Shown one piece after another: positions 2,121 to 44,207 of a stretch of DNA of 44,207 nucleotides. The notes below the pieces were generated by a model. That model was not told where the DNA came from. It did no database searches and saw nothing but the letters and a program-made list of their open reading frames with translations. Numbering within the stretch: the first letter of the stretch is position 1; every line of letters starts with the position of its first letter. The DNA comes from Okeania sp. SIO3I5 (GTDB lineage Bacteria; Cyanobacteriota; Cyanobacteriia; Cyanobacteriales; Microcoleaceae): assembly GCF_010672085.1 (NCBI RefSeq), contig NZ_JAAHHT010000057.1, positions 1 through 44,207 of the forward strand. The letters run 5' to 3'. Position numbers and translations under genes: made by a program.

Positions 2121-2126
2121 TTATTA

Positions 2127-3159: not shown

Positions 3160-3268
3160 AGATATCTCCAAAAATAAAAAATGAAACCAATTCAAGATAT
3201 TAAATCAACAATTTCATTCCCTCTTCCCTATTCCCTATTCCCTATTCCCTGACTTCTGCAAGAATTCT
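3160..3268 (-). repeat. Rep-D element, 109 bp
   Basis: It runs from AGATATCTCC to AGAATTCT, with AAAATAAAAAATGAAA, TTTCATTCCC and TTCCCTA heptamers inside. A same-length relative is at 36075-36183, and another 109-bp element with matching ends (AGACATCTCC / GGAGATGTCT) but a different middle is at 26820-26928. This copy lies immediately downstream of the cbiO stop codon. Confidence 0.65.
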
Positions 3269-3273
3269 ATTGA

Positions 3274-7153: not shown

Positions 7154-7315
7154 TGTAAAAATTTAAAATTATACTAACAAAAGTTAAAGATTTAGACAAA
7201 ATTTATAACTGTAATAGACTTATTATAAAAGTCAGGAACTAGAAACAGGAAAAATAAAATATCTCATACTAAAAGCAACAGAAAAAAAATTTTGATTTTT
7301 ACTAATGCAAAAACT

Positions 7316-9986: not shown

Positions 9987-10355
9987 ATGATGAATCATTT
10001 TCGTTTTCTATCTTTCTCTGCAATCGTTGCTAGTTTAATTGCCATGAGTTCTTGTGCAAATACAACTACTCCGACTATAGATACTAACACCAGTCCTGGC
10101 ACTTCAAATTCAGCCGTATCTACTACTCCTGGCACTAGAATTAAAATAGATATAAATGATGCTTCAGACTCAGATTTAAAAAAATTAGCAATCAAGTTAA
10201 ATCTACCCGATCTACCAGAAAAAATCAAGAAAAATCGTCCTTACAAAGACATTAACCAACTGGCAGTAAAAAAAGTTATCAGTCCTGAGCAATTAGAGTT
10301 TGTTAAGAATGATATAACTGTCACAGAACTCACCCAAGAAAAAAATAGCAATTAA
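9987..10355 (+). CDS. Small lipoprotein with ComEA/PsbU-like HhH domain
   Basis: The 122-residue protein has a signal peptide ending in the lipobox IAMSSC (Cys23), a Thr/Ser/Pro-rich linker (about 26-48), then a helix-hairpin-helix-like domain: IDINDASDSDLKKLAIKLNL and RPYKDINQLAVKKVISPEQL, ending LEFVKNDI. This spacing is that of ComEA/PsbU-type HhH folds, where IN-A-S-EL-LPGI and PF-S-DL are typical; the usual glycines of the hairpin (LPGIG) are replaced by LPDLP, so DNA binding is doubtful. Location is probably the periplasmic face of a membrane. Two consecutive ATGs (9987, 9990) could start it. Confidence 0.65.
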   Translation: MMNHFRFLSFSAIVASLIAMSSCANTTTPTIDTNTSPGTSNSAVSTTPGTRIKIDINDASDSDLKKLAIKLNLPDLPEKIKKNRPYKDINQLAVKKVISPEQLEFVKNDITVTELTQEKNSN

Positions 10356-10856
10356 CTAAAAAAAACTTTTTTAACGCAGCAATTAGCACTCAGCACTCAG
10401 TAATCAGCAGAATCTCTTTTTTTACGTTTAGAAGAAGATTTTAACTTCTCCTAAAACATCCATTGTTTGGGGTTGCTGGGAATTTTAAACCAAAGCTGCT
10501 AAAAGTTAATAGCTAATTAAATTGTGTAATTTTCCCCTGCTAATATAACTAGCATTTAGTAGGGGTTGAGAAAAAAAGGATTTTTGCCTTGAGATTATCT
10601 ATAGAAAAAGTTAATATAGTAGTCGAAGCAAAGGTTAGGACAATTCTAAATCCTGTTTGCGGAGGATTTCCCTATACGAAAAATCCTTTGACAGTTTACT
10701 ATTCCCTATTCCCTATTCCCGATTCAAGTAGCCCTATATTTGCTATCCTTAAATAAAAGTTAAATCTAGGAAAACTTAAATTAATATTGAATAAACAGAT
10801 GTCTATAACTAAGCAGTTACAATTAATCAGAGAAATGTAGACTTAAAACGTTAAAA
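10356..10856. other. Intergenic region before ferritin-like gene
   Basis: It holds CAGCACTCAG repeats after the HhH gene and an element with TATAGTAGTCGAAGCAAAGG at about 10616 whose sequence recurs inverted at about 14640-14663, plus TTCCCTA heptamers (about 10700-10720). The last 120 bases look unique and presumably contain the promoter of the next gene. No coding region is seen. Confidence 0.5.
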
Positions 10857-17800: not shown

Positions 17801-20247
17801 AGGTAAACCTCCAAAGTAACTTCGTAGCAATGCTGCCAACTATTAGTTGGTAAAAGTTGCCTGGCTATTTCCAAATAATCCATGGCCGATTCATATGCTG
17901 TGGTTTCTTTGGCTCTAATCCCGGCAATGCGGTTGAGACGAAGGAGTTCCGAGGGTTCTTTCTGGGTTTGAGAATTGTCAATCCCTTTATTTAAGTGATT
18001 GACAATTGCAAAAATGCGATCTACAAGTCGATCTGGTGATATGCTAGCAAGCAACAGCTGACCAATTTGAACGTGGGCGATTTGCTTTTTTTCTTCTGGA
18101 ATTAAAGCATAAGCAGCTTGTTGAACGCGATCGTGTAGGAAACGATAATTTACATCAATTCTCTCAGTTTCAGCAGAGTTAATTTCACCTTGAAAAAACT
18201 TGTAAGCTTGGCTAATCGGTAAAACCATCCCTTCTTGTAGGGTACTCCAAAGTTGGCTTGCTACTTCTTCTGCTCGAGTTTGACAAACAACAGCCAAAGT
18301 CTCCAAATCAAACTGGTTACCAATACAAGCCGCCAATTTCAACACCTCCTGTGTTGCTGCGGGTAACTTCTGCAACCTTCGGGCCATAAATTCCACCACA
18401 TCATCCGTGAGAGCTGCATCTCGCACTTGAACCAAATCGCATTCCCAATATCCCAAATTTTGATTAAATAAAATCAATTTATCTTCATACAACCCTTTCA
18501 ATAATTGTGTAGTAAAGAACGGATTTCCTTGGGTCTTCCGATAAACCAATTCTGTCAGTGGTTGAGATTGTTCTACTTGGCAAATCAGGGTTTCTGCTAC
18601 AAGCTGATTGATGTGATGCACAAATAAGGGAGCCAGGGTAATGGTAGAAATTGCTGCTTCCTGCTTCTCCAATTCGGCTAGAGTCAATATCAGAGGATGG
18701 GCGGGGAAAACTTCGTTATCCCGATATGCTCCCAGAAGCAGTAGATATCCTGTTGTGCTATTCCCCATCAACACCTTCATTAGATTTAATGATGCCGAAT
18801 CTGCCCATTGCAAGTCATCAAGAAAGATAACTAAAGGATGTTCTTTGGTGGTGAAAACGGCAATGAATTTCTCAAAGAGTAAGTTAAAGCGATTTTGGGC
18901 AGCGCTTCCAGATAGTTCAGGGACGGGAGGCTGTTTGTCAATAACTGCTTCGAGTTCAGGGATAACATCAATCAGAACTTGTCCGTTATTTCCTAACGCT
19001 TCCAGGATTTGAGTTTTCCAATTGGCTAATTCCGCATCAGATTCGCTGAGGATTTGCCCCATTAAGCTGCGGAAAGCTTGTACAAAGGCAGAGAATGGAA
19101 CATTGCGGTTAAATTGATCGAATTTGCCTTTGATAAAGTAACCTCGTTGTTTGACAATAGGTTTATGAACTTCATTAACGACGGCAGTTTTCCCAATGCC
19201 AGAAAAACCAGCCACTAGGATCATTTCTGCTCTACCTCCCCCCTTACTAAGGGGGGTTTGGGGGGGATGAGCAACTCGCTCAAAGGCATCCAGTAGTGCT
19301 TGGACTTCTTTTTCTCTTCCATAGAGTTTTTCGGGAATCAGGAAGCGATCGCTCCTATCCTGTTCTCCTAACTCAAAAGACTCTATTTTCCCAGTTTCCA
19401 ACCATTGTTTTCTGCATTTCTCCAAGTCATATTTGAGTCCCAAAGCACTTTGATAGCGTGACTCAGCATTTTTTCCCATCAGCTTCAGAACAATATCCGA
19501 TAGGGTTGGCGGACATAAATCTCCACCCAATACTACCGAGTTACTCAGAGGATCGGGAGAGATAGCGATATGAGCATGAATCAGTTCTAAGGCGTCATCA
19601 CTGTTAAAGGGTAAAGTTCCTGTCAGTAATTCATAAAATGTGACTCCAAGCGAGTAAAAGTCACTGCGATAGTCTACTGCCCGATTCATCCGTCCTGTTT
19701 GCTCTGGAGACAAGTAAGCGAGGGTTCCTTCTAAGACATTGGGGGTTGTAGCTGCTTGGGTTTCTTTTGGTAATAGGGTAGAAATACTAAAATCGATTAA
19801 TTTTACTTGTTTAGTTTCTGGATGAATCAGTATATTTGCTGGTTTAATATCTTTGTGAATAATATAGTTATTGTGCAGTTGGTGTATAATTTCTGAGAGT
19901 TGGATAGCAATATCTAAAAATTGAGACAGACATAGGGATGCTCTTGCCTGATACTCGGCCAAAGATATGCCTCCCATATCTTCCATAATCAGGGCGTAGC
20001 GGTTTTCGTAACGTTGGAGGGCATAAGTTTTAATGATACCTTCTATATCTAGATTTTTACTAATTACATATTGATTTCGAAACTGAACCAATTCTGTGAA
20101 GGAAGGATATTGATTGTGCATCAATTTAATAATCACAGGTTGTCCATTTTCCACATTTTGCGCGCGATATACTTCTGTGCGATCGCTCTTATGAATCAGT
20201 TCCTGGGCATAATAATTATCAATTTTAATTGTTTTGATCTTACTCAT
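14827..20247 (-). CDS. Ser/Thr kinase-AAA ATPase-GAF-histidine kinase (HstK-type)
   Basis: This 1806-residue cytosolic signalling protein has, in order: a Ser/Thr kinase domain (about 10-275; K41, HKDIKPAN 131-138, DFS at 152-154 in place of DFG, GTLAYLSPEQTGR activation segment); an AAA/STAND-type ATPase (Walker A GFSGIGKT 347-354, Walker B VIFLDD about 473-478); a long helical TPR-like region (about 750-1330); a GAF domain (about 1360-1510); and a histidine kinase with His1553 in GVAHEINNP, an N-box NLLANAIDAL and G-boxes DNGTGIP and GTGLGMAI. It matches the HstK-like multi-kinases common in filamentous cyanobacteria. A C/G-rich repeat encodes residues of about 327-340. The start follows AAGGAAC, as in the paralogue at 26947-32310. 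The signal sensed is unknown. Confidence 0.93.
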   Translation of the reverse strand: MSKIKTIKIDNYYAQELIHKSDRTEVYRAQNVENGQPVIIKLMHNQYPSFTELVQFRNQYVISKNLDIEGIIKTYALQRYENRYALIMEDMGGISLAEYQARASLCLSQFLDIAIQLSEIIHQLHNNYIIHKDIKPANILIHPETKQVKLIDFSISTLLPKETQAATTPNVLEGTLAYLSPEQTGRMNRAVDYRSDFYSLGVTFYELLTGTLPFNSDDALELIHAHIAISPDPLSNSVVLGGDLCPPTLSDIVLKLMGKNAESRYQSALGLKYDLEKCRKQWLETGKIESFELGEQDRSDRFLIPEKLYGREKEVQALLDAFERVAHPPQTPLSKGGGRAEMILVAGFSGIGKTAVVNEVHKPIVKQRGYFIKGKFDQFNRNVPFSAFVQAFRSLMGQILSESDAELANWKTQILEALGNNGQVLIDVIPELEAVIDKQPPVPELSGSAAQNRFNLLFEKFIAVFTTKEHPLVIFLDDLQWADSASLNLMKVLMGNSTTGYLLLLGAYRDNEVFPAHPLILTLAELEKQEAAISTITLAPLFVHHINQLVAETLICQVEQSQPLTELVYRKTQGNPFFTTQLLKGLYEDKLILFNQNLGYWECDLVQVRDAALTDDVVEFMARRLQKLPAATQEVLKLAACIGNQFDLETLAVVCQTRAEEVASQLWSTLQEGMVLPISQAYKFFQGEINSAETERIDVNYRFLHDRVQQAAYALIPEEKKQIAHVQIGQLLLASISPDRLVDRIFAIVNHLNKGIDNSQTQKEPSELLRLNRIAGIRAKETTAYESAMDYLEIARQLLPTNSWQHCYEVTLEVYLNLAEVNYLSGKFATSLALVESIVQSTKQAIDRAEAFNLAVLQFTLQGEFLQALEYGKKALDCLNFDLLETNLKEKIESCQVQIDLKLGNRKIEQIVSEPEATVPDKRAIIKILNNLLVPTYVLQKEDLYFLITLSIVFISLNFGMVAESSYGFSSYGMYVGGKQGNYQLGYEFGQLAEKLAKRFHQGSDLCKACYILGNNILSWVRPLREAESIFNEGLVAGLESGELIFSANILMYKSLNPFYAGDNILEIQETLPQHLEFATRTLNYQLAVDVMLGLNIWLADITQNSSNNILTEQEYLKNCQANNSTYAICHYWILKTKILCLYGRYEEALIAAGAAEEIINVIPGKYQIAALNFYQSIAAIEYCRLHSLISNNDYLEKIKFNQAKLKQWAASCHENFSHKYFLVDATVNSFLGNKVHCIDLYDRAIAAAKENKYIQEEALANELAAKFYLDWGKEKFATLYLQEAYYCYAQWGAKAKIKDLELRYPQLLKPILESKRQSLSSKTSISKLTSHSHSQTATVANISSILDFSSLLKASQTLSGEIELDRLLSTILKIILENAGATKSALLLSSETGLTIEAIANRTGDSSKLTIDSLNQSIPWEDSQNLPVGLINYVRRTTETALLDAQAAQEQFAADNYLLRFHPQSLLCMPLQERGKLIGILYLENRLTADAFTTERLEILDTLCAQAAISLQNARLYQQAQQTLKDLQAAQLQLVQSEKMATLGNLVAGVAHEINNPVGFISGNVDAAQEHLQDLLSALSLYQENTSPPQEIVEAIEELETDFIAEDFPKLIASMAEGCQIIRNISTSLRTFSRTDTASKTEFNLHDGIDSTLLILKYRLKANENRPAIEIVKNYGNIPLVKCYAGQLNQVFMNLLANAIDALDESNEGKTFTDIEKKRNCITIATELSEDKKSAIVRIADNGTGIPEEVKARLFESGFTTKAVGKGTGLGMAIAHQIVTEKHGGMITCNSTVGQGTIFTIIIPR
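19228..19269 (-). repeat. C/G-rich repeat in frame inside kinase gene
   Basis: The plus strand reads CCTCCCCCCTTACTAAGGGG followed by a run of G, a palindromic C/G-rich repeat. It encodes the linker HPPQTPLSKGGG between the kinase and ATPase domains. The paralogue carries a related repeat at the same place (31282-31347). Confidence 0.7.
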
Positions 20248-26946: not shown

Positions 26947-29900
26947 TTATTGAGGAATAGAGATAGTAAACTTTACCCCCTGTTCGAGTTTGCTTTCTGC
27001 GCAGATCGTTCCTTGCAGTTTTTGCGTTACCAAATTATAAACTATATGCAGTCCCAAACCTGTTCCGCCTTGATTTCTCGCCGTTGTATAAAACGGCTCA
27101 AAAATTTTATCAAGCTCTGCTTCTGCAATACCGCAACCATCATCAGTATATTCAATCATTAATCTCTCTTTTTTTTGTTCTATTCTCCAATTTAATTCTC
27201 CACTTTTGCCATCAGGATAACCATGAAGCAGAGAATTGTTGGTTAAATTGGTGACGATTTGCGCCAATGCTCCGGGATAAGTTTTGATCTGGAGATTTTC
27301 ATCTCCTTCGATGTTCACTTCATGTCCCTGTTGTCGGATGTTAGGCATTAAACTGGTTATCACTTCGCTCACGTATCCTTTGATGGCAAAGCTACGCATT
27401 TCTAGATAGGTTTGATCGACAGCTACTTGCTTAAAACTGCCAATCAATTCCCCCGCTCGCTTTAAATACTGGCAAATTAGTTGGGTACATTCTTCGCTGG
27501 TTTCTATGTAATTGTTTAAAACAGAGCGCTTGATTTGCCCAGAAGCGATCGCCGAAGCCAATGCTTCAGTTTCGGAATTTAGGGTTGAGGCAACGGTGAT
27601 GCTGGTGCCAACTGGAGTATTAATCTCGTGGGCGACTCCCGCTACCAGACCTCCCAAAGATGCCATTTTTTCTGATTCTACAAGTTGTTTTTGAGTATCT
27701 TTCAGGTTTTGGAGAGCTTGGGATAATTCGGCAGTTCGCTCTTGTACCTTGATTTCCAAATTATTGTATAGTTGAGCATTTTCGAGGGAAATGGCTGCTT
27801 GAGAACAAAGCAAATTCAAGATGGCGATTCGATCGCTAGTAAATGCACCACTCACTTGATTGTTTTCCAAGTAGAGAATGCCTCGGAGTTTACCTCTGTC
27901 TATTAAAGGCAGACATAATATAGACTGGGGTTGATGTTTTTGGATGTATTTATCTCGGCTATAGTCGTTGTCTTCTTTGGCATTATCTAAAACCAGGTGT
28001 TCCCTTGTATTTTTGACTTGATTAACCAGGGTTAAGGGCACATTGTTACTTTCTTCAACCGGAATGCTGATTGCAGACATTTCTTCTTTTGTTGCGTGGG
28101 CGTTTAGCATGAGATTCTCTGCTTCCAAGAGCATGAGAGCAACGGTTTCAGCTCCAGCGGTTTCTTGGATGACTTGTATGAAATTGGTAATGGCACTCTT
28201 GAGATCAATTTCTTGGGAAAGGCTGCGGGATGCTTTCATTAGGCTGGCTAAATCTAACAGTTCTCCGGTGGAGGTATTGGTGCTAGAAACCGTCCCTTTG
28301 GTGAGAGTGGTAATTTTATCGTTGGCAGTGACGCCTAATTGTTGCCGTTGGAGAATGGGGAATAGCAGTTCGGGATAGCGTTTTTCGAGGTCATTGATTT
28401 TGGCTTTAGCTCCCCAAAGAGCATAGCAGTAATAAGCTTCTTGCATATAAACGCTTGCTACTTTTTCTTTGCCCCAGTCGAGATAAAATTTAGCTGCCAG
28501 TTCGTTACCAAGAGCTTCTTCTTGGATGTATTCGGTTGCTTTCGCTCCGGCAATAGCACGATCGTATAGCTCGATCGCTTCTAGTTTTTTTCCTAAAATT
28601 CGATGGCGTTCGGCTGCAATCAAATCGCATTTATGTTGAAAATTCATTGGTGCATGGGAAGCCCAATGTTCTTGCAATTCCCCTAGATTTTTAGCCACCC
28701 GTTCCCAGCCTTGAGAGGATGAGAGTAACTGATGCTGTAAACCAGCTAAAGTGGTTAAAGCATCGTAGAAATATAACCAAGGTTGAGTCATCATTCCCAT
28801 CGTGCCAACCAAGTATTTTTGGGCTTCAACAGCATAATTTAGGGCTGATTCGATATCTTCAAACAGATAAGAAAGCATCAGTTTATATAGGTTGAACATT
28901 GACAACCCTGCTAACTCATTTTCACGGGATAATTCAGTCAGCAATTCAGTTTCTCGGGCACGATCCTCACCCATCACACAGGGATCTGATGTAACCCCAA
29001 GCAAATTTAAACACACTTGTAGGTGCATTCGACACCACCTTGCTGGTATTAATTGATTTAACTGCACCAACCCCTGCTCGTAAGGATGAATTTCTTGCTG
29101 TATATCACTCAGAGATAAACCTACCAACAAAGAATGTAAGCCAAGGTTGTGAGCAGAATTTGCTGCCCATTCCAATTTGCCAGTCTCTAAGGCCAATACA
29201 TAGTTTTCCCGCATAGCAGGAACCGTTTCTCTGAGAGGAAACTTTCGTGGTAAAATACTAATTGCTAGAGTTACCATCATAGCTGCTTTAATAGGTTTGT
29301 CATCGAATTTAGAGACAATATCTAGGGCTAAGTGTCCTAATTGAGCGCCCTTTTCTACCTGTTTTAAAAGATTGCAATTGATGAAACTGTAATTGACATA
29401 AGCAAAGGCTGAAATTGGGGTGTTGCCATAGCTCAGGGAAAGGTTAACTATTTTGGCACTCAGCAAAACAAAGAGAGCGGTAGCACCCACAAGATAAGCT
29501 GGCAAAGTCATAAGATAAGCAATTTCAACGATCGCTTTCTGTTTTTCATCCCTCATTACGGGCAGCTCAACAAGTTCCCGAATCTCTCGCTCCCCAATCA
29601 GGTTGTCAATCTCCTCCACAACCTGTTGAATATCACTGTCGCTGGGGTTATCGGGAAAGGTTACTCCCAACTGTTGCAAGATTTTTTTGCCGATAGCAAT
29701 GGCTTCAGGGATTTGGTTTTGATAGGTTTTGGAGAGAATTCTCGTCTGATATAAATTCACATTATCAAGCACGGATTTAGATTTGGCGATCGCTGCTTCT
29801 ACAAACCCTTCCATTGTTTCAAACTCACCACACAAGGATGCCAATTCGGCAGCTAAATTGTGGAAAGCAAAGGTCATTTCATATTGCCTCTGCCAGGCAT

Positions 29901-32310
29901 TTTCTCCCAACAACGATAAACCAATGCTAGCATATTCGCGCCCGCCTTGATAAGCCGTCGCTGCCCTAGCTTTCCGACAGGCGACAAGATTAAGTCGGGC
30001 TAGTTCGTCTCGTTTGCTTTGGTTACTAATTAAAGTATTTCCATAGTTTAATTGACTGACTAACTCAAAAATTCGCTCTTCTCTAGCTTCCATCGGAACT
30101 TGTTGCAGCAACAGTTGTCCAATATGGTAGTGGGTTTTGGCTTTTTGGTCTTCTGGAATTAGGGAATAAGCTGCTTGTTGAACTCGATCGTGCAAGAATC
30201 GATACCCAACTTTCATAGCTTGAGTCTGGCTTTCTTGAAGGTTTCCTTGAAAAAACTTATACGCCTCGCTGATGGGGAGAATTAATCCTTCTTGCAACCC
30301 ATTCCAAAGCTCACTCGCTACTTCTTCTCGGGAATTTTCTCGTACAATTGCTAAAGTCTCCAAATCAAACTGGTTACCAATACAAGCTGCCAACTTCAAC
30401 ACCTGCTGCGTTGCTGTCGGCAACTTCTGCAACCGTCCCGCCATAAATTCCACGACATCATCAGTGAGTGCAGCATCTCGCACCTTGACTAAATCGCATT
30501 CCCAATATCCAAAATTGCGATTAAATACAATTAATTTATCTTGATACAACCCTTTCAAAAACTGTGTAGTAAAGAAGGGATTCCCCTGAGTCTTTTGATA
30601 AACTAATTTGGTGAAAGGCTGAGATTCTTCGACTAAGCATCTCAGGGTTTCTGCAACAAGCTGATTGATGTGATCTACAGATAAGGGAGCAAGAGTAATA
30701 GTAGAAATTACAGCCTTTTGCTTCTCCAATTCTGCTAAAGTCAACATCAGAGGATGAGCGGGGAAAACTTCGTTATCACGATAAGCTCCCAGAAGCAGTA
30801 GATATCCTGTTGTACTATTCCCCATTAGCACCTTCATCAGATTTAATGATGCTGAATCTGCCCATTGCAAATCGTCTAAAAAGATCGTCAAAGGATGTTC
30901 TTGAGTAGTGAAGACAGCAATGAATTTCTCAAAGAGCAAGTTAAAGCGATTTTGAGCTGCACTCCCCGATAATTCTGGTGCGGGAGCTTGTTCCCCAATA
31001 ACGCTTTCTAGTTCAGGGATGACATCAATCAGAACTTGTCCATTAGTTCCCACTGCTTCCAATATTTGAGTTTTCCACTCAAGCAATTTGGCATCTGATT
31101 CTCCCAAAAGTTGCTCCATCAAGCTGCGGAAGGCGATGACGAAAGCACTAAAGGGAATATTACGATTGAATTGGTCAAATTTTCCTTTGATAAAGTACCC
31201 TTTTTGCCGGACGATGGGTTTGTGAACTTCATTCACCACAGCGGTTTTCCCGATCCCAGAATATCCTGCTACTAGCATCAGTTCGGCTATCCCCCCCAAC
31301 CCCCCTTTGAAAGGGGGGAGAAGGAGGGGATTGGGAGTTGGGGGGGATGCTACTCTTTCAAAAGCATCCAGTAGTGCTTGGACTTCTTTTTCCCGTCCAT
31401 ACAGTTTTTCGGGGATTAAAAAGCGATCGCACAAATCCCGCTCTCCCAAAACAAACGCCTCAATTTTTCCCGTTTCTCGATCTTGCACCCAGCATTTTTC
31501 TAAATCGTATTTGAACCCGAGAGCGCTTTGATAGCGATCCTCGGCATTTTTTGCCATCAATTTCATCACAATATCTGTTAGAGGTTTAGGTATTGCTCTC
31601 TGGTGACTGATTGCAGGAGGTATTTTCGCGATATGTGCGTGGACAAGTTCGAGTGGATCTTTACTTTCAAAAGGGAGTTTTCCTGCCAGGAGTTCGTACA
31701 AGGTTACTCCCAAGGAATAAAAATCGCTGCGATAGTCTATGCCACGATTCATCCTTCCGGTTTGTTCGGGAGAAAGATACGCCAGGGTTCCTTCTAACGC
31801 ATTGGGAGTTTGCAAACTTTGGGTTTCTTTCGGGAGTAACGATGAGATACTAAAGTCGATTAATTTAATTTGTTTGGTTTCTGGATGAATTAAAATATTG
31901 GCAGGTTTGATATCTTTATGAACGATCCAATTTTGATGGAGATAGTGCAAGATATCTGCCAGTTGAAGAGAAATTTCCAAAACTTGTTTAATCGAGAGAG
32001 AGAATTGGCGCTGATATTCGGCGAGAGAGATGCTTCCTATATCTTCCATGATTAGAGCATAGCCATTATTGTAACGCAAGAGCGAGTCAGGTTTGACGAT
32101 ACCGGGGATGTCTAGATTTTTGGCAATGGCGTACTGATTTCTAAACTGCACTAATTCGTTAAAGGAAGGATATTCCTGACTCATCAATTTGATAACTATC
32201 GGTTCTCCATTTTCCACATTCTGACCTCGATATACGAGATTGCGAGCGCTTTCGTGAATAAGTTCAATGGCTTGATAATTAGCTATTTTAATTGTTTTTG
32301 TCTCCATCAT
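26947..32310 (-). CDS. Ser/Thr kinase-AAA ATPase-GAF-histidine kinase (HstK-type), paralogue
   Basis: This 1787-residue protein has the same layout as 14827-20247: Ser/Thr kinase (K41, HKDIKPAN 131-138, DFS 152-154), AAA/STAND ATPase (Walker A GYSGIGKT 349-356, IFLDDLQWAD), helical TPR-like middle, GAF (about 1355-1510) and histidine kinase with His1561 in GVAHEINTPVGTS, DDGCGI and GTGLGLHI. The N-terminal two thirds are clearly homologous; the transmitter belongs to a different subtype (HEINTP rather than HEINNP), so the C-terminus was exchanged or diverged separately. Two ATGs (32310, 32307) follow AGAGGAAC, matching the leader of the paralogue. A C/G repeat encodes about residues 322-343. 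Autophosphorylation sites are intact in both kinase types. Confidence 0.93.
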   Translation of the reverse strand: MMETKTIKIANYQAIELIHESARNLVYRGQNVENGEPIVIKLMSQEYPSFNELVQFRNQYAIAKNLDIPGIVKPDSLLRYNNGYALIMEDIGSISLAEYQRQFSLSIKQVLEISLQLADILHYLHQNWIVHKDIKPANILIHPETKQIKLIDFSISSLLPKETQSLQTPNALEGTLAYLSPEQTGRMNRGIDYRSDFYSLGVTLYELLAGKLPFESKDPLELVHAHIAKIPPAISHQRAIPKPLTDIVMKLMAKNAEDRYQSALGFKYDLEKCWVQDRETGKIEAFVLGERDLCDRFLIPEKLYGREKEVQALLDAFERVASPPTPNPLLLPPFKGGLGGIAELMLVAGYSGIGKTAVVNEVHKPIVRQKGYFIKGKFDQFNRNIPFSAFVIAFRSLMEQLLGESDAKLLEWKTQILEAVGTNGQVLIDVIPELESVIGEQAPAPELSGSAAQNRFNLLFEKFIAVFTTQEHPLTIFLDDLQWADSASLNLMKVLMGNSTTGYLLLLGAYRDNEVFPAHPLMLTLAELEKQKAVISTITLAPLSVDHINQLVAETLRCLVEESQPFTKLVYQKTQGNPFFTTQFLKGLYQDKLIVFNRNFGYWECDLVKVRDAALTDDVVEFMAGRLQKLPTATQQVLKLAACIGNQFDLETLAIVRENSREEVASELWNGLQEGLILPISEAYKFFQGNLQESQTQAMKVGYRFLHDRVQQAAYSLIPEDQKAKTHYHIGQLLLQQVPMEAREERIFELVSQLNYGNTLISNQSKRDELARLNLVACRKARAATAYQGGREYASIGLSLLGENAWQRQYEMTFAFHNLAAELASLCGEFETMEGFVEAAIAKSKSVLDNVNLYQTRILSKTYQNQIPEAIAIGKKILQQLGVTFPDNPSDSDIQQVVEEIDNLIGEREIRELVELPVMRDEKQKAIVEIAYLMTLPAYLVGATALFVLLSAKIVNLSLSYGNTPISAFAYVNYSFINCNLLKQVEKGAQLGHLALDIVSKFDDKPIKAAMMVTLAISILPRKFPLRETVPAMRENYVLALETGKLEWAANSAHNLGLHSLLVGLSLSDIQQEIHPYEQGLVQLNQLIPARWCRMHLQVCLNLLGVTSDPCVMGEDRARETELLTELSRENELAGLSMFNLYKLMLSYLFEDIESALNYAVEAQKYLVGTMGMMTQPWLYFYDALTTLAGLQHQLLSSSQGWERVAKNLGELQEHWASHAPMNFQHKCDLIAAERHRILGKKLEAIELYDRAIAGAKATEYIQEEALGNELAAKFYLDWGKEKVASVYMQEAYYCYALWGAKAKINDLEKRYPELLFPILQRQQLGVTANDKITTLTKGTVSSTNTSTGELLDLASLMKASRSLSQEIDLKSAITNFIQVIQETAGAETVALMLLEAENLMLNAHATKEEMSAISIPVEESNNVPLTLVNQVKNTREHLVLDNAKEDNDYSRDKYIQKHQPQSILCLPLIDRGKLRGILYLENNQVSGAFTSDRIAILNLLCSQAAISLENAQLYNNLEIKVQERTAELSQALQNLKDTQKQLVESEKMASLGGLVAGVAHEINTPVGTSITVASTLNSETEALASAIASGQIKRSVLNNYIETSEECTQLICQYLKRAGELIGSFKQVAVDQTYLEMRSFAIKGYVSEVITSLMPNIRQQGHEVNIEGDENLQIKTYPGALAQIVTNLTNNSLLHGYPDGKSGELNWRIEQKKERLMIEYTDDGCGIAEAELDKIFEPFYTTARNQGGTGLGLHIVYNLVTQKLQGTICAESKLEQGVKFTISIPQ
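31282..31348 (-). repeat. C/G-rich repeat in frame inside second giant kinase
   Basis: The plus strand has a CCCCCCCAACCCCCCTTTGA / AAGGGGGG palindrome followed by a GGGATTGGGAGTTGGGGGG stretch. It encodes SPPTPNPLLLPPFKGGLGG between the kinase and ATPase domains. Related intergenic copies are at about 33113-33145 and 33345-33374. Confidence 0.75.
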
Positions 32311-36074: not shown

Positions 36075-36183
36075 AGACAACTCCAAAAATAAAAAATGAA
36101 ATCAATTCAAGATATGCAATAAACAATTTCATTCCCTATTCCCTATTCCCTATTCCCTATTCCCTGACTTCTGCAAGAAGTCT
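36075..36183 (-). repeat. Rep-D element providing the sulfotransferase stop
   Basis: It runs AGACAACTCC to GAAGAAGTCT-type end, with AAAATAAAAAATGAAA and TTCCCTA heptamers, as at 3160-3268. The stop codon and last nine codons of the sulfotransferase gene lie inside it. Confidence 0.7.
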
Positions 36184-37233
36184 AATATAAAGTGTAGCTA
36201 TTTCGATTTTTTGCTCATTATTTATTTCCACAACAATACTTAATTTTACTGACTCATTAACAATAATGTTATGAAATTTAAAACGAGAATTTTTACTAAC
36301 ATTAACTCCCGGATATTTTTTGCCATATACTGGAGAGCTTAAGCCTAGTTCTGCCGGAATTATTTGACCAGAATAAATTGTATATATTGCCGAAACAGAA
36401 ATTTGATTATTTGTCGGAATAATTACACCAGCAAGATTAAATTCTTGACCAGGTAATATCTTATTTGGCACATTATCAATTTCACAGATAGAAAATAAGT
36501 GACTATGTAAAGATGCAGGTTTCAGTTTAAGAATAAAATTTTGATATGCCTGAATATTTTTTTGACCGTAGCCGTGAGGAGTTAATAAAATTTTATCCAT
36601 ATTTTCTGGATATTCAACACCTAAAAAATCAAACAATAATTGAAAATTATTTGATTGTGAAACTACTTCCTCATAGGAAATCAGAAAAGTATCATCTGGG
36701 TGTTTTTTTTGATAGTTATGAAAAGCGGTTTCAAGATTCATTAGTTCAGTTCTAGATTCTGCTCGATCTGTGTTTGCCCACCAACCACTTTTTAAGACAT
36801 CATCTAGATTTCTGATATTGAAAATAAAAGCAGGTTTGGGAAAAATTTTAGCGAGAAAGTCTAAGTAATCAGCAACATCTTTTTGTTGTTGATAGACTTC
36901 AAAATATCGAATTTCTTTAAATCCATAACAGACGATATTTTTATCATTTTTTTTGTCAGCTAATAAAACATTCCTAACCATATTCTGACAATCATGCAAA
37001 AATAATTCTAGATTTATTTCTCCTGCTCCATACCAAGAATTATTGGGTTGAGTAATATCTTCATAATTACGAGTATCTATCAACTTTTTGTAAGCTTCAT
37101 ATAATCCATAAATAAAGTTATTATTTTCACCTCTGACCAAAACTCGGTCAATATTATTCAAAATACCTTGCAGTAAAGTTGAGCCACTTCTACCATAGGT
37201 GACAATTAAAACTGATTCAAAATTTAAAGACAT
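36157..37233 (-). CDS. Sulfotransferase with C-terminal beta domain
   Basis: It is predicted to move a sulfuryl group from PAPS to a carbohydrate or other acceptor. The N-terminus VLIVTYGRSGSTLLQ holds the 5'-phosphosulfate loop; a 3'-phosphate-binding-type segment follows later (FIFNIRNLDDVLKSGWW). After about residue 235 a beta-rich domain begins, with GLSSPVYGKKYPGVNVS, resembling modules appended to some glycosyl- and sulfotransferases. The ATG at 37233 (MSLNFES) is preferred over an in-frame TTG at 37248 inside repeat DNA. The C-terminus (IRLLAEVRE and stop) is encoded by the Rep-D hairpin and the first GGGAATA heptamer, so the native end was probably altered. The adjacent gene has another sulfotransferase domain. 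Confidence 0.8.
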   Translation of the reverse strand: MSLNFESVLIVTYGRSGSTLLQGILNNIDRVLVRGENNNFIYGLYEAYKKLIDTRNYEDITQPNNSWYGAGEINLELFLHDCQNMVRNVLLADKKNDKNIVCYGFKEIRYFEVYQQQKDVADYLDFLAKIFPKPAFIFNIRNLDDVLKSGWWANTDRAESRTELMNLETAFHNYQKKHPDDTFLISYEEVVSQSNNFQLLFDFLGVEYPENMDKILLTPHGYGQKNIQAYQNFILKLKPASLHSHLFSICEIDNVPNKILPGQEFNLAGVIIPTNNQISVSAIYTIYSGQIIPAELGLSSPVYGKKYPGVNVSKNSRFKFHNIIVNESVKLSIVVEINNEQKIEIATLYIRLLAEVRE

Positions 37234-37540
37234 ATTTTTTAAATTCAAAAGTCAAAAGTCAAAATTCAAAAGTAATAAGTGCTGAGTAATGAGTAATGAG
37301 TAATGAGTAATGAGTAATACCTCTGCCTGTTTGCGCAGCATGAGCAGGAAAGTCAGAGGATTCAAAAAATGATGAATTTTTTGAATTTTTCTTCATGAAT
37401 GAAGAAGCTTTAAAGCAACATCAACGGGCTTGATTTTACTTATTACTCCTAACTCCTAACTCATTACTCCTAACTCCTAACTCCTAACTCCTAACTCCTA
37501 ACTCCTAACTCCTAACTCATTACTCATTACTCATTACTCA
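37234..37540. repeat. Heptamer tracts between glycan genes
   Basis: The gap holds TCAAAAG and ATGAGTA heptamers (about 37250-37320) and CTAACTC/CTCATTA heptamers (about 37440-37545). These run directly into the 3' end of the next gene. Confidence 0.75.
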
Positions 37541-40500
37541 TTACTCATTTTTATACTGTTGCCAAATAGCATCAACAGAATAAAAATCTTGTAATAGTTG
37601 ATAATCTTCTGCATAAAATTCTATTAATTTTCTCAAAGACTTCTCTGTTAAATCTTGAATAGTTATTCTCGGCCCCTCAGTTTGAAATCGAGGAAATTCT
37701 ATTTCAATGTTTGCCTTTTGAGAAATTATTTGTCTGAGGTTTTCCAAATTTTCAATTGGGCAAATTAAATCATAAATATTCAAGTCTTTACCTATATATT
37801 TGTTCTGCGGTAAAGCATGATGAATCATAGCATCAGAAATTTGAAAGTAATTTTCTAAATTTTCCACAAAATAGTTAATATCAGGTTCAGGTTTTAAACC
37901 AGCATTTTCTAATTTGCCTCGTATCGATTTTAACCAAAGATTTTTATGATACAAGACCCGATTTTTATAACAAGATAATAGTCGTTTTATGGGGTCACGA
38001 ATTACAGTAAATTTGAAATAGTTATCTAAATTTTTGAAGTTATCTAAGACATCAGTATAGGGATACCAGAACTGATGAATTTGTTCTATGGAGCCAGAAT
38101 ATTCTTGGTTAAATTTTAAGGAGTAAAAAGTATGTTTGAGAGTGGTACTAGCACATTTAGGAATTGGTAAATAAGCTAATCCTAATTCCTCAAACTTTAA
38201 AACTCGAAATACTTGTAATTTTAAGGCGCGATAAATTCTCGGTGGTTGATTGGGATCTATTTTTATTGCCTGACTATAATATTTTAGAGCAGATTCAGTT
38301 TCTCCTTTATCAGCTAAAATATTTCCCAATTTTAGATTAATACTGGCATCTTCAGGAAATCTGTCTATTGTTGCTTTTAAGACAGCGATCGCTCGCTCTG
38401 TTTGATTTGTTTCGACAAAAAATTGACTCAAGCTTTTATAAATTTTTAGTGGTTGGTCTGGTTGAATTTCAATAGCTTTTTGAAACTTGTCAATAGCAAC
38501 TTGGAAATTTCTTTGTTTAGCAGCTTCTCGCCCTTCTTTTAAAAAAACTTCTCCATCTAATTCTTGTAAATTTGGCTGAGTATCAGAAGAAATAATTCCT
38601 AACTGAACTAAATTAAAATCATAAGGTTTAATACCATTCAAATATAAAATTTTTGACACTAATACATCTTCATACAATTCTCCACGGAAACAACCAGGAT
38701 ATTTCATCGTATATTCAAACAAAATTTCCAGACTTTTTCGAGACAGAAAATATCCACTTCCACCATCACACCACCGCGCCACAAATGGCAAATCATAAGG
38801 AGTTTTATCAATAGATTTAGATTCACATTTATTAAAATGCCAAGACCTACCGATAGAATATCCTATAGTATTACCCATATAATCTTGGGTAGATTCTGTT
38901 GACAACCAATCTATTAATTCTAAAAATCTTGGCATATCTTTAATCCAGGTATCATCATCTAACTTCAACACTCCCTGAAAATCAAAACAACAATGAAAAT
39001 ATTGAAATGCTTGGAAAACTTTTAGGGGTAAAGATTCATAATTATCGGGAGATTTGACATATAAAATATCTCCCTCATTTTGCCAATCAGAACTTAACTC
39101 TGGTTCCCCAATTACAAAACAGTAGGGCAGGTTAGTTTTTTGATATAGTTTCTCTCTCAAAACTTTAATTTTATCAAGATTTTTTTTGCAGGAAATAATC
39201 ATAATAGCTATCTTGCTATTGGATGAATTAACCACAGCGGGCATCTGACCCGTGACATGATTATATTGTTGTTGTAAATTAGTTTTAATTAGAGGTAAGC
39301 AAGACTGATTATCAGGATTTAATAAGAGACTGTTTTGCAGATGTGAAATTGCTTGATTATATTTTTTAGCACTTGCAGAATCAAGCCCCAAGTAGAGATA
39401 AATTATCGACAAAGTAATATGTTGGATTATAAATATTTTCTGATTTTGATGCACAAAATCAATTATCTTATCGACGAATTCAGGTTGATTATTAGCCAAA
39501 CAAGAACGAACTAGACTTAAGACAGATAAAATAAAGACAAGGTGATTATATTGCAAACCTTCTAGTAAATTCTTGCTATAAAAATCTCGACAAGTTTCTA
39601 AATTAATCTGATAAATATTCCATGCCTGCTCTAATTTACCATTAGCAGCTAACTCACAAGCCTCAATAATTTCATTAATCAAACGATGTTGATTAAACAT
39701 ATATTTTCTAGCCATAAAATCATCCACAAATTCATTAATCTTATCTAGATTGCCAATAGTCAAAAAACATCTACAGAGATGAGGATAAGCAGATAAAAAT
39801 TTTCCCGAATTACTAGCTTTTTGATAATTATCAATCGCTGCTTGATATTTAGATTGACGAAAATATAAATGACCTAAACCCAGATAACCTTCATTAGAAT
39901 ATTGCGACAATTCCTGAAAAATTGACTCCGCTTCTGCCAATCTTTCCAACTTCATAAAAATCTCACCGCAACGCATATAAGCAAGAATATTTTGGGGAAA
40001 CTTTTCAATAACTTCTTGCCAATTTGTTAATGCTAACTCCCACTTTTGCTGCCTTTCCAATACCCAAGCCAAACCACATAAACCATCAGATTGATAGGGG
40101 GATTTTTCTAATACATCATTAAAAACAACTTCCGCTTCCTTAAACCTACCTAACTCAATTAAAACATTACCTTTAGCAATATAAAAAGACAAATTTTCAG
40201 GAAATTTATCGATCGTTATTTCCCACCTTTCTAATGCAATCTGCCACTTTTTTTGTTGTTGAGCAACCTTAGCTAAATTTTCCCACCCCAAGGTTTCATC
40301 CGGAAACTGTTCAGCCATTTCACTAAATAAATTTCTAGCTGCCTCAAATCTACCTAATTTAACCAACACTTTACCCTTACCTAAAGAAGCAGATAAATTT
40401 TGTGAATCTAGTTTCAATGCCTTCTCGTAATTACTTAAAGCAGCCTCAAAATTTTGTAAATGATTGAGATAAAAATTTCCTAAATTCACATATATACTAG

Positions 40501-41929
40501 GATTATTAGAATTAAAAATCATAGCAGCTTCATAAGTTTCTAAAGCAGCCTTAATATCACCAATATTCGTATGAACAGCAACTAAATTCTTGTAACCAAC
40601 TAAATTTTCTGGTTGGAGTTGAATTGCCTTTTGATAAACAGTAATTGCCGCTGCAAAATTGTTAACTTGATGAAAAACTTCACCCAACTTTATATGTAAC
40701 CAATAATCTTGAGGAAGAGTCTCCAATCCATCCTGATAATAAACAATAGCCTCTTCTGAATTTCCCTGTTCTCGACAAACATCTCCTAATCCAATATCCA
40801 CCCATGAATTATCAGGTTTCAATTCCATTGCCTGCTGATAATAACTAATAGCTTGCTCCAAATTTCCTTGGTCTCGAAAAACTCCCGCTAATCTAATATA
40901 TAACCAAACATTTTTAGGACTTAACTCTCTTTTTAATCCATCCTGATAATAAACAATAGCCTCTTCTAAATTTCCCTGTTCTCTATAAATATCTCCCAAC
41001 CCAATATAAATCCATGAATTATCTGGATTTAACTCCATTGCTTGTCGATAATAACTAACAGCTTGCTCTAAATTTCCTTGCTCTTTAAAAATACCCCCCA
41101 ATCTGAGATATAACCAAACAGTATCAGGACTAAATTCTCTTTTTAATCCATCCTGATAATAAACAATAGCCTCCTCTAAATTCCCCTGTTTTCTATAAAT
41201 ATCTCCTAACCCAATATAAACCAAGCAATTATCTTGATTTAACTCCATTGCTTGTCGATAATAACTAATAGCTTGCTCCCAATTTCCTTCGTCTCTGAAA
41301 ATACCCCCCAATCTGAGATATAACCAAACAGTATCAGGTCTCAATTCTTTTTTTAATCCATCCTGATAATAAGCAATAGCCTCTTCTAAATTACCCTGTT
41401 TTCTAGAAACATCTCCTAACCCAATATAAACCAAGCAATTATCTTGATTTAACTCCATTGCTTGCCGATAATAACTAATAGCTTGCTCCCAATTTCCTTG
41501 GTCTCTAAAAATACCTCCCAATCTGATATATAACAAAACACTATTAGGATTTAACTCTATTCCCTTTCTATAATAATCAATCGCTTCATTAAACTGCTTA
41601 ATTTTTCGGTAAGTATCCCCAATTAATCCATAAATCAATTCATTTTTTGGGAAATTTTTTAAAGCATTATGATAATACTCAATCGCCACTTGGTGCTGAC
41701 CATGCTTTCTAAGAATATCTCCTAAAACTTGATAATTTTCTAACTTTTGAGGAGAATTTTCAATGACTTTTCGATAAGATTCAACCAAACCATCCCATGC
41801 TAATGAACAGTCAGGATTAACCTCGACAGCAGCTTTAAAATTAGCTATTGCCTCCTCCAATTTTCCTTCTATCTTCAGTTGATTTGCAACTTCCACCAAA
41901 CTGATACTTTGCGATTGATTATTCGACAT
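37541..41929 (-). CDS. TPR / GT31-like / TPR / sulfotransferase fusion
   Basis: The 1462-residue cytosolic protein begins with about 20 TPR units (to about 890). A glycosyltransferase-like domain (about 905-1110) follows: KIAIMIISCKK, acidic metal-site motif KLDDDTW (D991-D993), GGSGYFLSRKS and GELYEDVLVS, the pattern of GT31 beta-1,3-galactosyltransferase-type enzymes. More TPRs (about 1125-1235) lead to a sulfotransferase (about 1250-1462) with PAPS loop PIPKCASTT (K1258) and FTVIRDPIKRLLSCYKNRV. The order implies one scaffold that adds a sugar and sulfates the product. A 70-residue double-TPR module is repeated about four times between residues 115 and 400. The stop codon lies in ATGAGTA heptamers (KNE-stop = AAAATGAGTAA). 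Substrate unknown. Confidence 0.85.
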   Translation of the reverse strand: MSNNQSQSISLVEVANQLKIEGKLEEAIANFKAAVEVNPDCSLAWDGLVESYRKVIENSPQKLENYQVLGDILRKHGQHQVAIEYYHNALKNFPKNELIYGLIGDTYRKIKQFNEAIDYYRKGIELNPNSVLLYIRLGGIFRDQGNWEQAISYYRQAMELNQDNCLVYIGLGDVSRKQGNLEEAIAYYQDGLKKELRPDTVWLYLRLGGIFRDEGNWEQAISYYRQAMELNQDNCLVYIGLGDIYRKQGNLEEAIVYYQDGLKREFSPDTVWLYLRLGGIFKEQGNLEQAVSYYRQAMELNPDNSWIYIGLGDIYREQGNLEEAIVYYQDGLKRELSPKNVWLYIRLAGVFRDQGNLEQAISYYQQAMELKPDNSWVDIGLGDVCREQGNSEEAIVYYQDGLETLPQDYWLHIKLGEVFHQVNNFAAAITVYQKAIQLQPENLVGYKNLVAVHTNIGDIKAALETYEAAMIFNSNNPSIYVNLGNFYLNHLQNFEAALSNYEKALKLDSQNLSASLGKGKVLVKLGRFEAARNLFSEMAEQFPDETLGWENLAKVAQQQKKWQIALERWEITIDKFPENLSFYIAKGNVLIELGRFKEAEVVFNDVLEKSPYQSDGLCGLAWVLERQQKWELALTNWQEVIEKFPQNILAYMRCGEIFMKLERLAEAESIFQELSQYSNEGYLGLGHLYFRQSKYQAAIDNYQKASNSGKFLSAYPHLCRCFLTIGNLDKINEFVDDFMARKYMFNQHRLINEIIEACELAANGKLEQAWNIYQINLETCRDFYSKNLLEGLQYNHLVFILSVLSLVRSCLANNQPEFVDKIIDFVHQNQKIFIIQHITLSIIYLYLGLDSASAKKYNQAISHLQNSLLLNPDNQSCLPLIKTNLQQQYNHVTGQMPAVVNSSNSKIAIMIISCKKNLDKIKVLREKLYQKTNLPYCFVIGEPELSSDWQNEGDILYVKSPDNYESLPLKVFQAFQYFHCCFDFQGVLKLDDDTWIKDMPRFLELIDWLSTESTQDYMGNTIGYSIGRSWHFNKCESKSIDKTPYDLPFVARWCDGGSGYFLSRKSLEILFEYTMKYPGCFRGELYEDVLVSKILYLNGIKPYDFNLVQLGIISSDTQPNLQELDGEVFLKEGREAAKQRNFQVAIDKFQKAIEIQPDQPLKIYKSLSQFFVETNQTERAIAVLKATIDRFPEDASINLKLGNILADKGETESALKYYSQAIKIDPNQPPRIYRALKLQVFRVLKFEELGLAYLPIPKCASTTLKHTFYSLKFNQEYSGSIEQIHQFWYPYTDVLDNFKNLDNYFKFTVIRDPIKRLLSCYKNRVLYHKNLWLKSIRGKLENAGLKPEPDINYFVENLENYFQISDAMIHHALPQNKYIGKDLNIYDLICPIENLENLRQIISQKANIEIEFPRFQTEGPRITIQDLTEKSLRKLIEFYAEDYQLLQDFYSVDAIWQQYKNE
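40726..41370 (-). repeat. 210-bp in-frame repeats in TPR region
   Basis: The plus-strand marker ATCCATCCTGATAAT ends at 40740, 40950, 41160 and 41370, an exact 210-bp period (70 codons, two TPR units). Units share long identical stretches, indicating recent amplification within the gene. Confidence 0.85.
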
Positions 41930-44083
41930 TGTATAAACTATTCCCTCGTTGAAATCCTATTAATTTTAGTTTGAAAAAAAAATATTAATCATACCAATTC
42001 ACTTAAAAAATGTCACAAATATTTAGTAACTCATGAAGTCATTTCAGTTATCAGTTATCAGTTGTAAAATAATAAGCTAAAATTACTGAAAAATAGAGAT
42101 TGAAAGTACCTAAAATATTACTTCTAACTTCTGATACCAATTCACTTTACAGATGTCACAAATAGTTTCAAACTTTAAATGCCAAATAATTGCCTGAAAC
42201 TGTTCTTGTGTCCAAGTTTTTAGCCTATCAAATCTGGCATTCTGAATTCTAAATTCTGAATTCTAAATTCAGTAAAACGGTATGACTACTGACTACTCCA
42301 AACCTAAGTAAATCAAGTTTATGAAATTGGTATAACTTCTGACTTTAGTGAAACCGTATTAGTGTTTCGCCTCATATTTACAGTCAAAGATGTTGCCCTT
42401 CAGAAATTTTTCTATTTTCTGGAAAAAAAATTTTGTTAACTTTTAAATATTTTTCATCAAAAATTCTTTGGTAATTTGAAAACCAGCATTTTTTAGTCGC
42501 AAGTTGATAAGTATGGAAGACTCAAATCCTAAAAATTTTAGCTAATAGTGAATAGCTATAGCAATCCTAAATAGGTTTTCAACAATTAATAATTAATAAT
42601 GAATAATTAATAATTATTAATTGTTGAAACTGATAGGATTGACTAATCATAAAAATTTTTATTTATTATCCCCTATCCAAGGGGAGACTTTATAAACATC
42701 TTTCTCTTTTCATAAAACTTGGGGATTATTCACAAGTTATGGGTAGGTCTGGGTTCGGCTTTTTCGGGATAAAAATGTATTAATTAGACACAAAGAAGTG
42801 AAGACTATAGACAGAATTCTTCCTCCCCCTCCTCCCCATCCTCCCACAAGGGTTTCAAGAGTTCCTTATAAGGGATAGCTTAAAAGGGGAGGCTTTAAAC
42901 CCAAATTTTTCGGTAAGATTTTATCGTAGGGGTTTGCTCTCCAAACCCAAGCATCAAGCGATTTGGAGACCAAACCCCTAAAATTTTTTCTTACGAATGA
43001 TTTCTTATGGCTATAGTTAATATTTACAACTATTTCTAGAAAGTTAATCATTGGCCAAATCAAAATATGGTACAAGTAGTTAGAGCTAATTAAACATTAA
43101 AAAAAATGTACAGGCGAGTTTAGGAAAAAGCCTTCATAAATGAGCGATTTAATCCTAAAAATTCGCCCGACACTTGTTGTATTTATGCCAATTAGCAAAA
43201 GTATTACTATACTTGGATAAGACTTCAATTATTAAGTAATTAACACATTTAGGAATGACTTTTTCGATAATTATTAGCCAGTTAGTATTAATTATTCTTA
43301 TGTTTAATTCTCCCGTACGGACGTTGCTTGAACATTAATGCGTTACATGTCGCGCAGCGTTAGCGGAGCGAAAGCGTCAGCAATACGTCCCTACCACTCC
43401 CCTACTCCCCTACTCAAGAAAATGTAGAGAAGTTTTTGAGAAATGATATTATTTATGCTCACCTACTTCATCAAAATCTTTTTCACCAAAACATAAACAA
43501 TTTCAGGAAATTATTTTATATCTTTACTTTGAAAGTTTGAAACTATTTGTGATATCTTTAATTAGCCATCAGCTTTTAGCATTTCCTTTCGGGAATGCTC
43601 TGCAAAGAGCTGTCAGGTTTTTGCAACTCTGGTTAAAATCCCCTGCAATCCCAAGCACAAGATTGTTTAAGAGGAGTTAAAATCCTCTTCTAAAAACGCT
43701 AAAAAAAATAATTTTACTGATTACTAAATGCTAAGTCCTGACCATTTTTTTAATTCAAAATTCACGCATTCAAAGTTCAAAATTTTTGGTTCATTCCTTA
43801 ATTTCAATAATTGTTTAATTAAGGATTCAAGCCTCATTCGTACAACTACGAAAAAATCAAAAATATTTTCCTGATTTCAAGCCTCTGACTTTCCTGGGTC
43901 ATGCGGCGCAAACAGGCAGAGGTTATAATGAGCGAATTAATAATTTTTAATGCGTGAATTGATTTGACCACTTTTTTAAAGTTAAAAAGTGAATTGGTAT
44001 AAGAAATCAGGTTTTTTCATTGAAGTGCGTAATTGTAATTCCTAATAATTATCAAAAAAACTTCTCATATATTTCCTGAGTAA
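41930..44083. other. Gene-free, repeat-rich stretch at window end
   Basis: No credible gene. Contents include TTCAGTTATCAGTTATCAGTT (about 42043), TTCTAAATTCTGAA repeats (about 42240-42270), Rep-E parts (about 42590-42720), an inverted repeat with GGGGTTTGCTCTCCAAA (about 42928-42983), Rep-F (43315-43394) and further Rep-E-like blocks with TTTCAAGCCTCTGACTTTCC (about 43860-43920). Two short decayed coding-like fragments near 42136-42240 and 43490-43560 are noted under findings. Confidence 0.6.
43315..43394 (+). repeat. Rep-F palindromic element
   Basis: GTACGGACGTTGC (43315) and ACGTCCCTAC (43385-43394) are inverted ends; the interior has ACATGTCGCGCAGCGTTAGC as in 9432-9534. Confidence 0.7.
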
Positions 44084-44207
44084 TATAGCAATTCCCAAGA
44101 AGCGTGAGGTACAAAATTCCTTGGTTTTAGGGAACAGGGAACACTTAACTGGGAACAGGGAATAGGGAATAGGGAATAGGAAACAGGGAATAGGAAATAG
44201 GAACAAA
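44084..44207 (-). repeat. Rep-A element, inverted and cut by window end
   Basis: Begins TATAGCAATTCCCAAGAAGC followed by GTGAGGTAC, the reverse complement of the right end of 117-273, with GGGAATA heptamers up to the last base of the window. Confidence 0.8.

Follow-up and report, generated by a model that had tools for sequence, protein, structure and literature searches.

A cyanobacterial protein joining tetratricopeptide repeats, a GT31-like glycosyltransferase domain and a sulfotransferase domain in a single chain

A stretch of DNA of 44,207 nucleotides from Okeania sp. SIO3I5 (contig NZ_JAAHHT010000057.1 of assembly GCF_010672085.1), analyzed here as a whole and called the window, contains a gene whose product joins tetratricopeptide repeats (TPRs), a glycosyltransferase (GT) domain related to family GT31 and a sulfotransferase domain in one chain. 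Both catalytic domains belong to recognizable families and keep conserved motifs, the fusion is present in several species, and unfused counterparts are linked in other cyanobacteria and on alphaproteobacterial plasmids. We see about an even prospect that the fusion protein is a cytosolic two-step enzyme that modifies a glycan destined for the cell surface by sugar addition and sulfation.

Architecture of the fusion protein

The fusion gene (37541..41929, on the minus strand, as are its parts and the second sulfotransferase gene described below) is an open reading frame (ORF) of 1462 amino acids with an ATG start. Compared as a whole with Pfam, its product matches TPR_2 (E=4e-110) and Sulfotransfer_2 (E=1.4e-19). 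Residues ~1-890 (39260..41929) form an N-terminal TPR array with 15 significant stretches of TPR_2 and 17 of TPR_11, inside which lies a 210-bp tandem repeat (40725..41558; 4.0 copies, 88% matches) whose unit encodes 70 amino acids, or two TPR units. The GT31-like domain follows at residues ~901-1130 (38540..39229), recognized by PF01762, by a profile search of the PDB and by a structure model with fold searches. Next comes a TPR linker that joins the two catalytic domains (residues ~1131-1234; 38228..38539; best TPR_16 stretch 1172-1229), and the chain ends with the Sulfotransfer_2 (PF03567) domain at residues 1242-1462 (37544..38206). The preliminary description of this DNA had proposed a single protein with TPRs ahead of each of two catalytic domains, one GT31-like and the other a sulfotransferase with a loop for 3'-phosphoadenosine-5'-phosphosulfate (PAPS). 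Pfam and the ORF translation confirm that arrangement, and the residues it named, D991-D993 and K1258, are found exactly where it placed them. The motifs stand at 991-993 (DDD), 1054 (CDGG), 1087 (EDV), 1255 (PIPKCAST, which includes K1258) and 1309 (VIRDP).

The N-terminal array differs in length between orthologues (ORFs of 1465, 1462 and 1253 amino acids), and this variation, together with the recent 210-bp repeat, is what a binding scaffold would be expected to show. As the protein has no strongly hydrophobic 19-residue stretch (maximum 1.59), it is probably cytosolic; UDP-sugars and PAPS are both produced in the cytosol. At the other end of the gene, heptanucleotide repeats (ACTCATT; window 37500-37549) span the stop and final codons.

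The GT31-like domain

Residues 900-1145 have a sole match in Pfam, to PF01762 (Galactosyl_T; E=4.8e-10, 40 bits against a cut-off of 23), and all eight rows of our first alignment of the GT family match PF01762 at E<=0.1. The profile of this eight-row alignment finds 11 PDB sequences at E<=1. The top seven, with E from 2.2e-7 to 4.5e-4, are beta-1,3-galactosyltransferases 5 and 6, B3GNT2 (four constructs) and C1GalT1, and the remaining four (E from 0.36) are unrelated. An AlphaFold2 model of the domain, built with 43 divergent viral-contig sequences in the alignment, has a pLDDT of 77.7 and a pTM of 0.78, with low confidence at model residues 217-245. Foldseek rows 1-38 for this model are all GT31 enzymes (best E=1.1e-11), and in the VIA fold search the 18 best rows are GT31 (Z 17.9-15.0), followed by mannosylglycerate synthase at 12.8. 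These fold-search rows and PDB matches are enzymes of family GT31, which for chondroitin synthase is stated in PMC12748766. The modeled fold is GT-A, nearest to GT31 and not another fold, which agrees with the preliminary description.

In an alignment of 47 rows, D991, D993, D1088 and K970 are invariant and E1087 is nearly so. The DDD triplet (38951..38959) would be the DxD motif for metal and nucleotide sugar. In the pair E1087-D1088 (38666..38671), which aligns with the ED of B3GalT5, D1088 is the putative catalytic base. The DxD motif and the catalytic Asp of GT31 are both present, with predicted roles like those reported for CHSY3, where, according to PMC12748766, H394 binds Mn together with the DxD and D342 is the base.

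GT31-like domains are also frequent in IMG/VR viral contigs (L086, L089, L124-L172 and others, from which the 43 distinct sequences were kept), and some of them sit behind another GT in one ORF. Among phage genomes, the GT slice matches one of 50,697 records.

The sulfotransferase domain

The C-terminal 238 amino acids likewise have a sole Pfam match, to PF03567 (E=4e-21, 76.7 bits against a cut-off of 22). The Pfam scores of both catalytic slices are well above anything that chance would give, although neither slice matches any NCBIfam family and phmmer searches of the PDB with the single slices return nothing meaningful. When a profile built from 10 relatives is compared with the PDB, it picks out heparan sulfate 2-O-sulfotransferase (4ndz/3f5f; E=4.4e-4 and 5.2e-4) and three heparan 3-O-sulfotransferase sequences at E=0.19. 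K1258 (38156..38158), R1311 (37997..37999) and S1319 are invariant across the 10 rows. By analogy with the heparan sulfotransferases, we take K1258 to lie in the 5'-phosphosulfate loop and R1311 with S1319 to form the 3'-phosphate site. H1371, which is invariant, and H1285, which is nearly so, are candidates for the catalytic base by conservation only. A structure model of the 563 residues spanning GT, TPR and sulfotransferase, made with four close rows, was discarded (pLDDT 41.6).

Distribution and selection

Six short peptide patterns, run against a collection of 84,980 species, located the fusion in Okeania sp. SIO2F4 (L009) and in Trichodesmium sp. MAG_R03 (L007). The chain of Trichodesmium sp. 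MAG_R04 (L008) ends inside the linker TPRs, and its sulfotransferase half (6200-6400) has decayed to stops; the TPR-GT part and the second sulfotransferase gene that follows it are retained. Both halves stand in one open frame in four of the 61 genomes of the family, namely the window's own, G442, G440 and G391, the last from another genus, and a fifth keeps the TPR-GT part with a decayed sulfotransferase. The search for the same fusion in other cyanobacteria that the preliminary description called for has therefore found it, intact. In a class-wide draw, the GT domain appears in 3/388 genomes when a single sequence is used and in 4/388 with an alignment, the source genome counted. A locus from the Acidiferrales (L010) was dropped as a relative, its match being through TPRs only.

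The fusion is under purifying selection. In three window-versus-orthologue pairs, the GT domain has the lowest dN/dS of the chain (0.15-0.20), against 0.25-0.37 in the sulfotransferase, 0.28-0.32 in the final 300 residues of the TPR array and 0.37-0.54 in the linker. The source genome has one PF01762 match, six PF03567 match rows and 35 PF13469 match rows; since many of the last fall in long ORFs, TPR-sized sulfotransferase proteins are common in this genome and the fusion architecture is rare.

A close relative of the TPR-GT part, with a GT domain 51% identical, is a TPR-GT31-TPR protein (L075, genome G497; 6986-10759) that ends where the sulfotransferase would start. Its gene is followed by one for an FkbM-type methyltransferase, as if one decoration had been replaced by another. 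A further protein (L043, genome G428; 196-3978) combines TPRs, a GT2 domain, a GT31-like domain (35% identical) and a PF13704 GT in one ORF of 1261 amino acids.

In each of the five loci (the window, L007, the decayed L008, L009 and L036) the next gene encodes a second sulfotransferase, with its PF13469 identity confirmed by Pfam in the window, L009 and L036. In the window (36157..37233; 358 amino acids) it adjoins the fusion gene and matches PF13469 (Sulfotransfer_3, E=3.7e-11), which bears out the adjacent second sulfotransferase of the preliminary description and puts the two sulfotransferases in different Pfam families (PF03567 and PF13469). The ORF was first called at 36157-37248, although the ATG at 37233 is the more likely start because the orthologues open with MSLNFES or MFLNFES. 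The last ~130 amino acids of this protein (window 36157-36558) have no Pfam match and look by eye like a beta-rich extra domain.

Unfused counterparts

In another cyanobacterial family with small genomes (f16, perhaps the Cyanobiaceae), 12 of the 300 genomes surveyed have a GT31-like match. One of these (G221) was left out of the linkage count on account of its partial GT match (E=3e-4, residues 49-99), leaving 11 genomes; as it does carry a PF03567 gene within ~1.5 kb of that match, the omission is conservative. Using sulfotransferase gene lists merged by hand from match rows, we count five of the 11 genomes in which a sulfotransferase gene lies no more than 5 kb from the GT31-like gene, where gene numbers would predict 0.17 (P ~2e-7). 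A single clade supplies four of these linked genomes, and with the clade counted once the figure is 2/8 (P=5e-3). In three genomes (G586, G643 and G563) the sole PF03567 match is the gene immediately downstream of the GT31-like gene, on the other side of which lies a PF13469 gene, while G067 has two PF03567 genes after the GT31-like gene and a PF13469 gene ~2.5 kb upstream. Because PF13469 also flanks the GT31-like gene, the unfused set of GT31, PF03567 and PF13469 is the same as that in the window. GT2 genes located away from the GT31 loci of the five linked genomes served as a control for glycan islands: a PF03567 gene lies within 5 kb of 1/109, and a sulfotransferase of any kind lies that close to 8/109.

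A tblastn search of 72,556 plasmids with the GT, TPR and sulfotransferase part of the fusion yielded 14 records, of which 10 match via the GT domain, four via the sulfotransferase and none via both; the GT31-like loci are alphaproteobacterial. Each of the 10 has a gene annotated as a sulfotransferase no more than 6 kb away. Going by the listed genes, it is the immediate neighbor at six loci, whereas a single gene intervenes at three and two genes intervene at one. The records are not independent (three are closely related Shinella, two Sulfitobacter and two Paracoccus). Sulfotransferases are rare in the plasmids with whole gene tables (1/83, 1/29, 2/30 and 2/35 genes). Four of the five plasmid GT proteins scanned match PF01762, and four of the five sulfotransferases scanned match PF13469 (E<=0.001). 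The unfused neighbors in cyanobacteria and on plasmids support a wider association of GT31-like and sulfotransferase genes. ABC transporter or exporter genes lie beside four of the 10 plasmid loci (three with a "sugar transporter"), type I secretion genes beside five and neither beside one; four of the five with type I secretion genes also hold a gene for a calcium-binding protein.

Two plasmid observations stand apart. On a Shinella plasmid, cysD and cysN (L187:20385-23188) are present in addition to the GT31-like/sulfotransferase pair, and a Thalassococcus plasmid protein (L173:3589-7719) combines a galectin-like lectin domain (PF00337, E=1e-7) with GT31-like and PF13704 domains.

Surroundings of the fusion gene

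The Pfam scan of the window covered 17 of its 18 ORFs of at least 120 amino acids, the other sitting within a larger ORF on the opposite strand. The scanned ORFs include kinases, histidine kinases, cobalt transport proteins and a ferritin-like protein. Two long paralogue-like proteins (14827-20247 and 26947-32310) each combine a Ser/Thr kinase, an AAA ATPase, a GAF domain and a histidine-kinase ATPase. From 41930 to 44207, 2.3 kb up to the contig end, there is no ORF of 100 or more amino acids.

After the second sulfotransferase comes a gene for the carotenoid enzyme CrtD (TIGR02733, E=2.5e-234). Such a neighbor might suggest that the fusion tailors a secreted small molecule or lipid and not a surface polymer or protein, and it is established that sulfotransferases modify natural products and lipo-oligosaccharides (PMC8205485). 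The neighborhood is not fixed, however: CrtD stays beside the locus in L007 and L008, and none is found within the ~900 bases past the second sulfotransferase examined in L009. There is also no biosynthetic gene cluster among the scanned ORFs of the window, and we regard a tailoring role of this kind as very improbable.

Proposed function

If the fusion is a two-step glycan-modifying enzyme, its TPR solenoid would hold the acceptor or a partner, and the GT31-like domain would transfer a sugar from a nucleotide sugar to the acceptor, perhaps through the beta-1,3 linkage typical of GT31. The Sulfotransfer_2 domain, held in the same chain by the short TPR linker, would then use PAPS to sulfate the added sugar or one close to it. 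The second sulfotransferase, being of another family, would probably sulfate a different position, and the glycan would go on to the cell surface or sheath via export machinery encoded elsewhere. Because the two activities are joined in one clade and adjacent in others, they are probably sequential on one acceptor. That acceptor could be a lipid-linked polysaccharide precursor or a protein; since the plasmid loci adjoin either ABC exporter genes (4/10) or type I secretion genes (5/10), a polysaccharide and a secreted protein are both viable. The preliminary description had suggested that the product could be a sulfated exopolysaccharide, which on this evidence is one candidate beside a secreted protein.

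Several observations weigh against the two-step reading. The 17 scanned ORFs of the window, whose end is also the end of the contig, give no match to a flippase, polymerase, co-polymerase or capsule exporter. On the plasmids, the scanned neighboring sulfotransferases that matched (four of five) are of the window's second kind, PF13469, and not PF03567. In the cyanobacterial family with unfused genes, linkage to a sulfotransferase within 5 kb is absent from six of the 11 genomes in which the GT31-like gene is clear, and because the five control genomes were selected for showing the linkage, 5/11 is the fair figure for GT31. Both gene types favor glycan islands, which could account for part of the linkage without any joint action. 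The close TPR-GT relatives L075 and L008 (decayed) lack the sulfotransferase half, and the L075 genome has no PF03567 match at all.

A further point of this kind concerns the metal site. At the level of sequence only, the GT domains of the fused clade have no His within 60 residues past the ED (5/5 sequences; the first in L009 is at residue 62, inside the TPR linker), so metal binding or catalysis in this clade may be altered. Our survey took in 22 sequences, three of which gave no motif; in all 13 other GT31-like sequences where the motif search worked, a His is present within 60 residues, and in L075, the nearest relative, the first is at 58. The possibility that catalytic residues had been lost across homologues, raised in the preliminary description, is accordingly for the most part not borne out: DxD, ED, K1258 and R1311 are retained, but in the sequence no His is found where a GT31 enzyme reportedly holds its metal. 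One might go further and suppose that the GT31-like domain is catalytically dead and serves the sulfotransferase by binding glycans or as a structural part. The missing His would fit, as it is H394 that reportedly binds Mn in CHSY3 (PMC12748766), and so would CHPF of the same human system, which reportedly retains the GT31 fold without a DxD. Yet the DDD and ED are kept in all sequences of the fused clade, the GT domain is the most constrained part of the chain, and L008 has kept its GT domain while losing the sulfotransferase, and a dead domain seems to us improbable.

We also considered an enzyme that modifies proteins, its TPR superhelix binding a protein as in O-GlcNAc transferase or SPINDLY, with the protein being glycosylated and sulfated before secretion. 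O-GlcNAc transferase and SPINDLY are indeed among the best PDB matches of the TPR part, a result that any TPR array might give. Type I secretion genes beside half of the plasmid GT31-like loci, most with the calcium-binding protein gene, point the same way, as do the HlyD and ABC genes present within 8 kb in the locus L078. Three of the five type I secretion plasmids are the closely related Shinella records, however, other plasmid loci have ABC exporter genes, and no type I secretion or RTX gene is seen next to the fusion itself. Proteins of L077 and L078 that had been taken by eye as RTX-like match no Pfam family and were rejected as candidates. On this evidence, we think a protein-modifying enzyme unlikely, if less so than a dead GT domain. 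O-GlcNAc transferase and SPINDLY combine TPRs with a GT41 domain, whereas the GT slice of the fusion lacks GT41, PF01762 being its only match and GT-A its predicted fold.

Relation to known systems

The GT31-like domain of the fusion shares with the animal GT31 enzymes (B3GalT5, B3GalT6, B3GNT2, C1GalT1, chondroitin synthases and fringe) a common fold family, PF01762, and the DxD and ED motifs, at 16-21% identity in the Foldseek GT31 rows (fringe 11%). It differs in being predicted cytosolic and fused to TPRs, where animal GT31 enzymes are type II proteins of the Golgi, in the missing His of the fused clade and in having a sulfotransferase in the same chain. The likeness to heparan sulfate 2-O-sulfotransferase and other PF03567 enzymes, which comes from sequence alone, consists of a Pfam match above cut-off, the profile match to 4ndz/3f5f and the residues of the 5' and 3' PAPS sites; unlike that enzyme, the PF03567 domain here sits behind TPRs and a GT.

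Closer to home, the synechan (xss) system of Synechocystis 6803 is also cyanobacterial and also combines glycosyltransferases with two sulfotransferases of distinct subfamilies (PMC8205485). Its genes lie with a Wzx/Wzy system, and none is found in the scanned ORFs of our window. A term search of that paper gave neither TPR nor GT31. The same paper places cyanobacterial sulfotransferases mostly in Wzx/Wzy or ABC clusters, with many in Trichodesmium, and describes sulfated polysaccharides as nearly confined to cyanobacteria among bacteria. Other cyanobacterial proteins (L040, L042 and L051) have a TPR array followed by PF03567, at 33-36% identity over TPR and sulfotransferase, but lack the GT31-like domain, while L075 and L043 have the TPR array and then the GT31-like domain, as in the fusion, but no sulfotransferase domain. 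In the literature surveyed, GT31 figures as a eukaryotic family, and our searches of open-access papers found no description of a TPR-GT31-sulfotransferase fusion or of the GT31-like/sulfotransferase pairing, nor, judged by title and abstract, a paper on a bacterial GT31 system. The protein is put together from known families in what looks like a new combination, and its function is predicted.

More tentatively, and with somewhat more doubt than belief, we propose that GT31-like and sulfotransferase genes make up a recurrent bacterial module, often plasmid-borne, that glycosylates and then sulfates in Cyanobacteria and Alphaproteobacteria and whose sulfated glycans would parallel animal glycosaminoglycans, with the Okeania/Trichodesmium group having fused GT and sulfotransferase into one TPR-scaffolded assembly-line enzyme. 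The fusion and its side-by-side unfused counterparts in two phyla provide a short list of candidate genes for sulfated glycan synthesis, and the fusion itself is a possible single-chain catalyst for attaching a sulfated sugar.

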